From Leptolyngbya sp. FACHB-261 (GTDB taxonomy: Bacteria; Cyanobacteriota; Cyanobacteriia; FACHB-261): DNA of 64,000 bases. Both the position numbers and the translations under genes were made by a program. The notes under the pieces were generated by a model that saw nothing but the letters and a program-made list of their open reading frames with translations, was not told where the DNA came from and ran no database searches. The DNA lies in contig NZ_JACJPL010000027.1 in NCBI RefSeq assembly GCF_014696065.1, forward strand, positions 682,001 through 746,000. Direction: 5' to 3'. This document shows, one piece after another, positions 16,049 through 20,439 of the stretch. Numbering within the stretch: position 1 is the stretch's first letter; each line of letters opens with the position of its first letter.

Positions 16049-16519
16049 TTAGTCGTTGATCGCCTTGCCAGCGCCTTCAGTCACACCCTTAACAGTGTCA
16101 CCAATATTGTCCAAAATCTTGGTGGTAACGCCACGGGGTCCCCATTCTTGGGTCTCACCTTTGGTGACCTGGTTCATTTTTTCCCGCATTTCCGTACGGT
16201 CATTCAACGAACGGCTGGCCCGCTCTTGAATTCGCTCACTGCCTTCGCGTGCGCCTTGCAGGGTGCGCTTGGCTGCACCACCTAAATCTACTCCTTTAAC
16301 CGGAGCACGCACGCCATCTTCTTGATCTGCGTAGCGCTCGTGGAAGGTATCTTTAGAGGCAGGGTTCACCAGGTCTTCAGCTCTTTCTGGCGAAGGAACG
16401 GCCCCAACGGGAGCAGCAGGCAGGCTTAATAAGCCAATCAGACCCACAAGCAAGGCTATGGCTAAGGAGCGGCTTAGGCGCTTGAAGGTTTGGATCAAGT
16501 TGCTAGAAATTGCGAACAT
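16049..16519 (-). CDS. Secreted helical hypothetical protein
   Basis: This 156-residue protein has a signal peptide (hydrophobic core SLAIALLVGLIGLLSLPAAP, cleavage near VGAVPS) and a highly charged, helix-prone mature part. The C-terminal half alternates Gly, Lys and Asp in amphipathic fashion (ILDNIGDTVKGVTEGAGKAI). The same plan, with related wording, occurs in the next gene upstream, so the two look like diverged paralogues. The composition recalls LEA or apolipoprotein-like helices, which is inference. It has its own terminator. No Cys or catalytic motif is visible. Confidence 0.65.
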   Translation of the reverse strand: MFAISSNLIQTFKRLSRSLAIALLVGLIGLLSLPAAPVGAVPSPERAEDLVNPASKDTFHERYADQEDGVRAPVKGVDLGGAAKRTLQGAREGSERIQERASRSLNDRTEMREKMNQVTKGETQEWGPRGVTTKILDNIGDTVKGVTEGAGKAIND

Positions 16520-16620: not shown

Positions 16621-17229
16621 TTACTTGCCTTGTAATGTGTCGCCAATATCTTCAACGGTGCGCTTGATTGCATCACCCAAGTCATCACCGGTGCGCTTGA
16701 TGTTGTCGCCTAGGTCGTCACCAGCACGCTCAGCACTACGAGAGGTTCGGTTGAGTTGACGCTCCGCTTTGTCGGAAGCTCGATCAATACTGCGGTCTAG
16801 CTTATTGCCAGTGCGATCAAATTTATCATTAACACTTTCAACCTGGCGTTCTGCCGAGCTACGACGCTCTGCGTTATCAATGCCGCCGAAAGCACGTTCT
16901 AGTTGATCATTGCCCAGCTCATCAACAGCCCGCTCAACTCGACGTTCTGTATTCTTTTCGGCATTGCCCAGGTTTCTTGGAATCCGCTTGGCTGCTGCTT
17001 CTGTCCGCCGTAACTGGGCCTCAGCCGCCTCATCTGCGCTCATCGTACGCCGCTCGGCGTAGGAACGGCGGCTTTCTTCGCTAAGATTTTGTCCCTTACC
17101 GGGATAGTCTCCGGATGGCAAAGCCTGTACCGAAGTTGTGAGCGAACTGCTTAGCCAGAGCAAACCTGTTAACAGCCCTAAAAGAACCACTCGATGTAGA
17201 GACCGAGCGAACTTCGAGAATTTCTGCAT
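16621..17229 (-). CDS. Secreted protein with 11-residue amphipathic repeats
   Basis: This 202-residue protein has a signal peptide (VVLLGLLTGLLWLSSSLTTS, cleavage near VQALPS) and a mature part of about 165 residues rich in Arg, Asp, Glu and Ala. It ends in three 11-residue repeats: GDDLGDNIKRT, GDDLGDAIKRT, VEDIGDTLQGK. Eleven-residue amphipathic repeats are typical of LEA-group and apolipoprotein-like helices that coat membranes or protect during drying or cold. The ATG at 17229 is preferred to one 11 codons upstream. It lies 100 bp from its paralogue-like neighbour on the same strand. The stress role is inference. Confidence 0.7.
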   Translation of the reverse strand: MQKFSKFARSLHRVVLLGLLTGLLWLSSSLTTSVQALPSGDYPGKGQNLSEESRRSYAERRTMSADEAAEAQLRRTEAAAKRIPRNLGNAEKNTERRVERAVDELGNDQLERAFGGIDNAERRSSAERQVESVNDKFDRTGNKLDRSIDRASDKAERQLNRTSRSAERAGDDLGDNIKRTGDDLGDAIKRTVEDIGDTLQGK

Positions 17230-17394
17230 GGAGTTACGTCCCTTTTGCTTAGCTAACCTCATGCATGTTAAAGAGGAAAGGCGCGCATTAGCGTCTCCCC
17301 TCAGGTGGGTTTCTCTAGGCGCGTCTATTCCTAGCTAAGCCTTCAAGCGGAGTAGTCTGTTAACTAAAGTTAAACTTTTGAATCGCATTGGGTT

Positions 17395-18681
17395 CTATTG
17401 ATCTAGCGCTACCGCTTGGCTAAGCGCTGCTTTTTCTCTAGCCCGTTGAATAAACGGCGCTAAGGCTGCTGTATCTAGACCACTCAGAATCTCTAAATTA
17501 GCAGGTTCTACCCCGCGGCAGAGCATATCAACGCACCAGCTTTGCCGCGCTTGGTCAGGGCGTAGTGGTGTGGCATCCGGATTAGTAAAACCATTAGTCC
17601 ACTGCTGCCAGCAAGTTAAAACTTCGGCTTCTGTCAGCGTAAATAGAGGCTGGCTAGGTTGTGGTCCTGCACCACGACGCCGTAAATAGCGGCTCAGCGG
17701 ACTGTTATTAGCAGTTGCAACTTGGCGGCCTAGTATTTTTTGATTAATGGGCACTTGACGCACGGTGCCTTGGGACGAGCAGACCCGTAGCATCTCCCAG
17801 TCTGGCTCAGCGCTGTAATCGCCCTGTCGCAGGCGCAGCACCTCAGCTACAGTCAACCCTGCACCAAATAACACCCAAGCCAGAGCATAGTCTTGTGCGC
17901 CTGCTTTCTTAGCCTGTGCCAGGATGCTGTGGGAAACTGAAGCACCCAAGTCCTCAGCTCCATTAGAGGGTACAGCCAGTTCTAGATGAGCAGTCTTCAG
18001 GGGCGGAGAGCCGATCAATTCAGCGCCCTGCAAAAACAAGTCAACCAGGCTCTCTAGAAACTCGCCTCGTCCCGCCCACAGGTTGCCCAGCATATCGGGT
18101 GGGCGACAGGTGACTTCTACCACGGCATAACCGAGAATCGTGCTGTTGATTAGGCTGGCTAGATTTTCCGGTGCTAGGCGCAGTTGCAGTTGACCGGCCC
18201 GTACCGCTGAGGCGAGGCAAGCGGCTAGGGCACGGTTGGCCTGCACAAAGCCCTGGCCCAGAGCTTGTCGGTTTTCCTCAGGATACTGACCCGACTCACC
18301 GACCACAGAACGCACTAGATCTGGCATTTCCTCCAAAGCTTGCAGACACGTATCGACATACTGCAATAGCTCTTGGCGGGGATCGCCATGCCAGTTGGTC
18401 TGGCGCATCAAAGACTGCCCAATGCTTGTGAACACCTCACACTCCTGGATAGTTGCAAGTAATAAGCCGTGCTTGTTGCCGAAGTGCCGGAAGAGGGTGA
18501 CTTCATTCACACCTGCCCGCTCAGCAATTTGCCGGGTTGTGGTCTCGGTAACCCCCTGACGGGCAAACAACTCCAAGGCTGCGTCAATAATTTTCTGGCG
18601 CGTCCGAATTGAGACGCGGCGCCGGTCACGAACACCGGTGACCGGGGGTTGCTCGGGTAGCGCAGCGGGGTTAACAGTCAT
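17395..18681 (-). CDS. TetR-family regulator fused to a degenerate tyrosine-recombinase-like domain
   Basis: This 428-residue protein starts with a TetR DNA-binding domain at 25-72 (IIDAALELFARQGVTETTTR, then QIAERAGVNEVTLFRHFGNK) and a ligand-binding-type helical region to about 220, the usual TetR length. About 170 extra residues follow (255-428). They read like a tyrosine recombinase catalytic domain: LFGAGLTVAEVLRLRQGDY aligns with the box I pattern TGLRxSELLxLRxxD, but the catalytic Arg is Thr277; the later HxLRH box reads RPDQARQSW and there is no C-terminal Tyr. So the domain is recombinase-like but catalytically dead. The frame is open upstream to 18804; the ATG at 18681 is preferred. 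It is divergent from the desaturase gene and may control it. Confidence 0.8.
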   Translation of the reverse strand: MTVNPAALPEQPPVTGVRDRRRVSIRTRQKIIDAALELFARQGVTETTTRQIAERAGVNEVTLFRHFGNKHGLLLATIQECEVFTSIGQSLMRQTNWHGDPRQELLQYVDTCLQALEEMPDLVRSVVGESGQYPEENRQALGQGFVQANRALAACLASAVRAGQLQLRLAPENLASLINSTILGYAVVEVTCRPPDMLGNLWAGRGEFLESLVDLFLQGAELIGSPPLKTAHLELAVPSNGAEDLGASVSHSILAQAKKAGAQDYALAWVLFGAGLTVAEVLRLRQGDYSAEPDWEMLRVCSSQGTVRQVPINQKILGRQVATANNSPLSRYLRRRGAGPQPSQPLFTLTEAEVLTCWQQWTNGFTNPDATPLRPDQARQSWCVDMLCRGVEPANLEILSGLDTAALAPFIQRAREKAALSQAVALDQ

Positions 18682-18786: not shown

Positions 18787-18874
18787 TGCAAGTGCCACTT
18801 GCAATTCGATCCAAAGCTAGCTAGGCTGAAGCGAGGCAAATGTGAAAGCAAGCAAGACTTGCACCACTTGCAAG
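18787..18874. promoter_or_regulatory. Palindromic GCAAG/CTTGC operator cluster
   Basis: TGCAAGTG-C-CACTTGCA (18787-18803) is a perfect 8-bp inverted repeat. A second cluster 50 bp on has GCAAG-A-CTTGC (18852-18862) and another CACTTGCA (18865-18872). They lie between the divergent TetR-fusion gene and desC, the expected place for TetR operators. The assignment to this regulator is inference. Confidence 0.6.
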
Positions 18875-19002: not shown

Positions 19003-19917
19003 ATGGCTTTTAATGCCGATATTTTGTCTGCGCCTAACTCCTCGCAAGAGAAGGCAGGTGAGACGACTGCTAGTGTTCAGCGTCCTCCTACAGAACTGCG
19101 CCTGAACTGGGTTAACGTTGCATTCTTCGGTGCGGTGCATCTGGTTGCGCTCAGTGCTCCCTGGTTTTTCTCCTGGAAGGCAGTGGGAGTCATGCTGGTT
19201 TTGCACTGGCTATTCGGCAGCGTGGGTATCTGCTTGGGCTATCACCGGCTGCTCAGCCATCGCAGCTTGCAGGTTCCCCGTCCTGTGGAGTATTTCTTGG
19301 CTCTAATTGGGGCTTTAGCCGCGCAGGGTGGACCGATTTTCTGGGTTGGGGGTCACCGTCAGCACCATGGCTTTACTGAGCATGAAGATCATGACCCTTA
19401 CTCCTCGACTCGGGGATTTTGGTGGAGCCACATGGGTTGGATTCTCTACTCACGGCCTGAGCACTTTGATCCTCAAAATTATTTCCGCTTTGCGCCCGAT
19501 CTGGCACGGGATCCGATTTACCGCTTTATGGACAAATGGTTCCTGGCCTTTCAGATTCCACTGGGCTTAGCGCTCTACGCATTTGGGGGTTGGCCTTGTG
19601 TGATTTGGGGCGGCGTCATGCGAGCTATCTTACTGTGGCACAGCACTTGGCTGATTAATTCTGCGTCGCATAAGTGGGGCTATCGCAACTTCCAAAGCAC
19701 TGATAATTCGCGCAATCTCTGGTGGGCTGCCCTACTTACTTATGGCGAAGGCTGGCACAATAACCACCACACCTATCCCAACATGGCGAAGGCGGGTCTG
19801 CACTGGTGGGAAGTGGATGTGACTTGGTGGTCAATCCAGGCCCTGCGCAAACTAGGCCTAGTGCAAAAAATCACGCTGCCGAAAGCAGATTGGCGCGAAC
19901 AGTTAGTGAAGAACTAA
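19003..19917 (+). CDS. desC: Delta9 acyl-lipid desaturase
   Basis: This 304-residue membrane di-iron desaturase has the three His boxes of the acyl-CoA/acyl-lipid Delta9 class: HRLLSH (81-86), HRQHH (118-122) and HNNHH (252-256), with hydrophobic spans before and between them. In cyanobacteria DesC places the first double bond in C18 (or C16) acyl chains of membrane glycerolipids using ferredoxin. GAGGAAG lies just ahead of the ATG. Divergent from the TetR fusion, with palindromes in the shared 320-bp region, so its expression is plausibly controlled by that protein. Close relatives acting at other positions cannot be excluded. A good terminator follows. Confidence 0.88.
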   Translation: MAFNADILSAPNSSQEKAGETTASVQRPPTELRLNWVNVAFFGAVHLVALSAPWFFSWKAVGVMLVLHWLFGSVGICLGYHRLLSHRSLQVPRPVEYFLALIGALAAQGGPIFWVGGHRQHHGFTEHEDHDPYSSTRGFWWSHMGWILYSRPEHFDPQNYFRFAPDLARDPIYRFMDKWFLAFQIPLGLALYAFGGWPCVIWGGVMRAILLWHSTWLINSASHKWGYRNFQSTDNSRNLWWAALLTYGEGWHNNHHTYPNMAKAGLHWWEVDVTWWSIQALRKLGLVQKITLPKADWREQLVKN

Positions 19918-20022: not shown

Positions 20023-20439
20023 ATGGCAATCATCAGCTTCGAGCTGCCGATCTACACCTACCAAATCGATTTCATTGGGCATGTCAATAATATTGTCTAC
20101 ATTCAGTGGATGGAAATTGCCCGCATGAAGCTAATGGAGGCAATTGACTTACCCGTCCATCAGGCCCATGCCCAAGGTTTTGTTCCGGTGCTGGTCCACA
20201 CCGAGATTACTTACAAAAATCCTCTGTATCTGGGTGAGACTGTCCGTGTTGAGCTATGGCTTTCTGAACTGAGAAAAGCGTCGGCTCAAATGGAGTTTCG
20301 CTTCTACAATTCGCAAAATATTCTGGCTGCCGAAGGTCGTCAACGCGGTCTATTTGTTACCCACGCAACCATGCGTCCGCGTCGTTTAGGTGCAGAAGAG
20401 CAAGCCCTATTTACACCGTTTTTACTTTCAGAAACTTAG
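20023..20439 (+). CDS. Hot-dog fold acyl-CoA thioesterase
   Basis: This 138-residue protein fits the 4-hydroxybenzoyl-CoA thioesterase/YbgC branch of the hot-dog fold. The N-terminal strand and loop read TYQIDFIGHVNNIVYIQWME, where Asp precedes the GHVNN turn and is the usual catalytic acid, followed by the long helix. The second strand ITYKNPLYLGETVRVELWL is also typical. It would hydrolyse acyl-CoA or acyl-ACP thioesters in the cytosol. Candidates include the 1,4-dihydroxy-2-naphthoyl-CoA thioesterase of phylloquinone synthesis, but specificity cannot be read from this. AAGGAG precedes the ATG. It follows desC after a terminator, so it probably has its own promoter. Confidence 0.8.
   Translation: MAIISFELPIYTYQIDFIGHVNNIVYIQWMEIARMKLMEAIDLPVHQAHAQGFVPVLVHTEITYKNPLYLGETVRVELWLSELRKASAQMEFRFYNSQNILAAEGRQRGLFVTHATMRPRRLGAEEQALFTPFLLSET

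Follow-up and report, generated by a model that had tools for sequence, protein, structure and literature searches.

In a 64,000-nucleotide stretch of the genome of Leptolyngbya sp. FACHB-261 (contig NZ_JACJPL010000027.1, positions 682,001 to 746,000; the window in what follows), an open reading frame on the minus strand (17395–18681, stop codon counted in) encodes a protein of 428 amino acids in which a TetR-family regulator is fused to a degenerate tyrosine-recombinase catalytic domain, here called RecL. The protein is probably a local regulator of the delta-9-type fatty-acid desaturase gene that adjoins it, with RecL as a catalytically dead accessory domain. Public annotation describes such a protein as a TetR/AcrR regulator and nothing more.

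All parts of the fusion gene are given here with their minus-strand coordinates. The helix-turn-helix domain TetR_N (residues 31–76; 18454–18591) matches Pfam PF00440 with 63.3 bits against a cut-off of 24 (E-value 1.8e-17), and the ligand and dimerisation domain of the TetR part (residues 77–220; 18022–18453) is all-helical in the predicted model and matches TetR_C_7 with 25.5 bits against a cut-off of 22. There follow a variable linker (residues 221–243; 17953–18021) and RecL itself (residues 244–428; 17398–17952). In the full-length AlphaFold model (predicted template modelling score 0.49) the domains are confident and the linker is disordered, with a predicted local distance difference test (pLDDT) value of about 45 at residues 221–240. 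The initial annotation of this DNA had placed the start of the recombinase-like part at residue 255; it lies nearer residue 244, past the low-confidence linker. The N-terminal core-binding domain of tyrosine recombinases is absent, and its place is occupied by the TetR domain and the short linker.

Taken on its own, RecL of the window protein gives a weak match to Phage_integrase (E-value 0.0069). PF00589 is matched by 27 of 30 orthologous RecL domains (best E-value 7.7e-13), and a profile of the orthologous domains matches the XerA structure 4a8e over nearly its whole length (E-value 3.2e-10), followed by the Tn1549 integrase and XerD; these two results indicate that the resemblance is one of homology and not of chance. 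Modelled alone, RecL has a pLDDT of 94, and its best matches among solved structures, found with Foldseek, are XerA, XerH and Cre; for XerA (5hxy) the template modelling (TM) score is 0.72–0.74 and the E-value 2e-7. The C-terminal domain had been called tyrosine-recombinase-like, with structure prediction suggested as a check, and profile, Pfam and predicted-structure matches all agree with that description: the predicted fold is a recombinase-like one.

Judged by its catalytic positions, the window protein cannot be an ordinary recombinase. The first catalytic arginine (Arg-I) is Thr277 (17851–17853), as the initial annotation had stated. The HxLRH box, which had been described as lost, reads D376-Q-A-R379-Q, so that the histidines are indeed gone, but the second arginine (Arg-II) is present as Arg379 (17545–17547) and had been overlooked. 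The reported lack of a nucleophilic tyrosine is correct for the window protein, which has Phe410 at that position (17452–17454), but not for the family: among 133 distinct fused orthologues, on which all residue counts given here are based, the position is Tyr in 124, Phe in eight and His in one. Arg-I is missing in 131 of them, with Ser (102) or Thr (18) in 120 and Arg in two, and at the Arg-II position 96 have Gln and 25 have Arg. The beta-strand lysine is missing in most, the His-II position is mostly Glu, Ala or Asp, and the His-III position is Trp, Cys or others. None of the 133 has the full catalytic set, and neither outcome that had been named as refuting the proposal, a fold unlike that of tyrosine recombinases or homologues whose catalytic residues are intact elsewhere, was seen. 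The sole catalytic residue kept in the window protein is Arg-II, whereas the family mainly keeps the tyrosine, which on this comparison is a family feature that was lost in the lineage of the window protein. Replacement of Tyr by Phe is found in separate sequence groups (the window protein, a Gloeobacter-like pair, L043/L057/L060/L061, and L106), which suggests that the ring serves a structural purpose. It should be noted that one fused protein (L190, genome G045) keeps Arg-I, the beta-strand lysine, Arg-II and the tyrosine, far more than its relatives, whether as a relic or by reversion.

A search for the same fusion, proposed along with the claim of a new architecture, revealed one that is real and widely conserved. 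Of 96 sampled cyanobacterial whole genomes, 54 have an orthologue, which is fused in 47; a species-level scan of genome contigs gave 80 further loci, all cyanobacterial by title, and among 386 genomes sampled from the phylum all matches lie within the window's own class. The 133 fused orthologues are all cyanobacterial, at about one per genome. Their mean pairwise identity is 56% in RecL and 58% in the TetR ligand domain (56–64% over the domains), as against 18% in the linker, from which it follows that RecL is under selection. No free-standing relative of RecL was found in the 96 genomes, where strong matches all lie within the fused reading frame; the best non-fused match (L206:69–1277, genome G046; E-value 2.6e-5) is an Xer-like protein in its own right, in which Lys stands at the Arg-I position and Asp at His-II. 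Two genomes with the fusion (G013 and G046) we take to be Gloeobacter; should this hold, the fusion would lie near the root of the cyanobacteria. RecL has apparently been kept since early cyanobacterial history for some job other than cutting.

The divergent neighbour (19003–19917, plus strand) encodes a membrane fatty-acid desaturase of the delta-9, DesC type, identified by FA_desaturase (PF00487, E-value 1.1e-19), by the mammalian stearoyl-CoA desaturase structure 4ymk (E-value 3.8e-35), as expected of delta-9 enzymes, and by synteny. A head-to-head desaturase is present in 108 of 110 loci, at a median distance of 177 base pairs (bp). Within 105 desaturase/regulator intergenic regions, the word ACTTGCA/TGCAAGT occurs in 104, compared with five in shuffles, and such words combine into a 17-bp palindrome, TGYAAGTNNNACTTRCA. 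TetR regulators bind a palindromic operator near their own gene, and this palindrome is a candidate for one. It is usually present in two copies, 46–53 bp apart. Palindromes are paired 46–60 bp apart in 99 of the 105 regions; a control in which the best site alone keeps its place gives 0.5%. In the window, OP1 (TGCAAGTGCCACTTGCA, 18787–18803) is a perfect match and the sole exact copy in its genome, while a palindrome scan places a weaker OP2 with two mismatches (AGCAAGCAAGACTTGCA) at 18847–18863, next to an extra direct half-site ACTTGCA (18866–18872, plus strand). Genetic linkage and a candidate operator at the desaturase promoter, as in regulators of the DesT/FabR type, are therefore both present. 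One fusion is plasmid-borne: on the mobilizable plasmid pP742403 of Gloeothece citriformis (L202:2937–5218), the desaturase/TetR-RecL pair has both operators and lies near an orange-carotenoid-protein N-domain gene.

A generic promoter scan of the window found none, and the desaturase promoter showed only when dereplicated loci were compared. In all 53 of these, TAnnnT stands 17–18 bp past the TTGCA-containing hexamer of the right half of OP1, compared with 11% in shuffled spacers. The corresponding predicted boxes in the window are a −35 box, TTGCAA (18799–18804, plus strand), which overlaps the right half of OP1, and, 17 bp downstream, a −10 box, TAGGCT (18822–18827, plus strand). Placed in this way, over the −35 box and close to where transcription is expected to begin, OP1 and OP2 have the predicted arrangement of repressor sites. 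The spacing of the operators is partly explained by the position of the promoter between them.

The 96 whole genomes contain 63 exact sites, 57 of which adjoin the orthologue, in 40 of the 54 genomes that bear it; an exact site is found in three of the 42 genomes without an orthologue, and the reversed control pattern gave two. The operator is practically confined to a single locus, and a wider regulon was rejected. One of the six remaining sites marks a probable trans target, the second, unlinked desaturase of genome G094 (contig 11), which is preceded by an exact operator (L187:1708–1724) together with TTGCA-N17-TAnnnT. The other non-adjacent exact sites that were inspected lie within a transporter-like gene (G050) and a polyketide-synthase-like gene (G209) and close to a TetR gene of no evident relation (G075). 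Small genomes of family f2 that lack the regulator (G089, G287, G315, G325, G404, G417 and G439) have in common an unrelated-looking site, TGTAAGTATCACTTACA.

Natural versions without RecL provide some insight into the division of labour. Genome G023 has a TetR-only protein, nested among fused proteins in the tree, with the desaturase and both operators intact; no credible match to a RecL remnant was found downstream of its gene. In six genomes of family f5, presumably Thermostichus-like (Synechococcus JA strains), the proteins are likewise TetR-only, and the desaturase, the promoter and one operator are present (none of the six has a pair), whereas fused proteins typically have two. Since the domain-less proteins keep operator and desaturase, the TetR part would read the operator and RecL would be accessory. 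RecL is also near neutral in charge (family median isoelectric point 8.0, net charge about +1, compared with +11 for the XerA domain). Together, the charge and the retention of the operator in domain-less relatives argue against a role for RecL in setting DNA specificity. A single operator alongside the domain-less form fits, and is not proof of, a RecL contact between dimers.

It is proposed that the protein is a local transcriptional regulator, most likely a repressor, of the adjacent desaturase gene and of its own gene. Since OP1 overlaps the predicted −35 box and OP2 coincides with the expected start site or follows it closely, a TetR dimer bound to the 17-bp palindrome would block RNA polymerase; binding would be relieved by a signal related to acyl lipids, in the manner of DesT, FabR or MadR. 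RecL would be an exapted, dead recombinase catalytic domain with an accessory task, distinct from DNA specificity. The fusion, the homology, the loss of catalytic residues, the conservation, the synteny, the operators and the promoter architecture are computational results; from these we infer repression, a lipid-derived ligand and a role for RecL.

For that role we tentatively prefer a contact that joins the TetR dimers bound at the two tandem operators, and divide the remaining probability over ligand sensing, partner docking and DNA clamping. A fuller version, to be held rather more loosely, is that a dead recombinase domain was captured early in cyanobacteria as an oligomerisation or sensing module of the dedicated regulator of delta-9 lipid desaturation, and that, in a likeness to the synaptic tetramer of active recombinases, it joins one TetR dimer to another across the desaturase promoter. 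Several points weigh against the proposed repression or the contact. Activation may take the place of repression. The correlation between two operators and the fused form is drawn from one independent TetR-only clade. G023 keeps both operators without RecL, so either the pair may not need RecL or the loss is recent. The operator spacings (46–48, 51–53 and 60 bp) are not in one helical phase, which makes a rigid contact unlikely.

A possible, if doubtful, alternative to contact between dimers is that RecL is a second sensor, in which the old active-site pocket takes a small molecule, a lipid-related ligand or a protein partner (acyl carrier protein, for example) and thereby adjusts the activity of the TetR part. 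The near-neutral charge, unlike that of DNA-binding recombinases, and the retention of the operator without RecL are in keeping with this, and invariant non-catalytic residues, among them G275, N313, G318, P328, W358 and W382, suggest a new conserved surface. The TetR part nevertheless has a ligand domain of its own, and we know of no ligand-binding relative of the recombinase fold. Less likely is an auxiliary, non-specific DNA clamp beside the operator. The recombinase fold is made to embrace DNA, R308 is kept in 131 of the 133 fused orthologues and many conserved basic residues occur in the segment 319–337; the low net charge relative to XerA, the missing core-binding half and the operators kept by domain-less relatives nevertheless count against such a clamp. 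That the extension is a functionless, decaying remnant is very improbable: RecL has been lost outright in G023, from among fused proteins, but its identity matches that of the TetR ligand domain, far over that of the linker, and 11 of its positions are invariant. Least credible of all is that RecL still performs DNA chemistry at some site, since, in spite of the widespread tyrosine and the residues kept in L190, Arg-I is gone in all but two orthologues and the histidines almost throughout, the tyrosine has become Phe in several branches, including the window protein and the Gloeobacter-like ones, and there is no core-binding domain.

Among known systems, DesT of Pseudomonas aeruginosa, FabR, and MadR of Mycobacterium appear similar in outline to the proposed regulator, being TetR-family proteins that are tied to desaturase genes and act at their promoter. 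To our knowledge, none of the three has a recombinase domain, and in a profile search of the PDB neither DesT nor FabR stood out as closely related to the TetR-RecL protein. DesT distinguishes saturated from unsaturated acyl-CoA, and MadR responds to saturated acyl-CoA (PMC8872791). RecL resembles the catalytic domain of XerA, XerC and XerD in profile and fold, and differs from it in the loss of Arg-I and the histidines, the lack of a core-binding domain, the fusion to TetR and the near-neutral charge. PfsR of Synechocystis (sll1392) is also a cyanobacterial TetR regulator, which binds its own promoter (PMC4092027); with 203 amino acids, a role in iron homeostasis and no extra domain, it was rejected as a known member of the TetR-RecL family. 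ALOG domains, along with other recombinase parts found in regulators, provide a precedent for tyrosine-recombinase modules that became regulators (PMC3537659). In TetR-RecL, by comparison, it is the catalytic domain that is reused, and in bacteria. A literature search, with most subscription journals outside it, found neither a TetR-recombinase fusion nor a TetR regulator of cyanobacterial desC, and this recruitment of a recombinase catalytic domain into a transcription factor seems not to have been described before. In cyanobacteria, the unsaturation of membrane lipids begins with delta-9 desaturation. No dedicated regulator of the cyanobacterial delta-9 desaturase is named in any paper that we found; the present locus offers a candidate, and with its operator, its promoter and natural deletion mutants all to hand, this candidate can be tested directly.

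Of the other genes nearby, one for a 4HBT-type thioesterase (20023–20439, plus strand) lies downstream of the desaturase in the window and is not among the conserved neighbours of other loci. Two minus-strand neighbours of the regulator (16049–16519 and 16621–17262), matching no Pfam or NCBIfam family, have signal-peptide-like starts.
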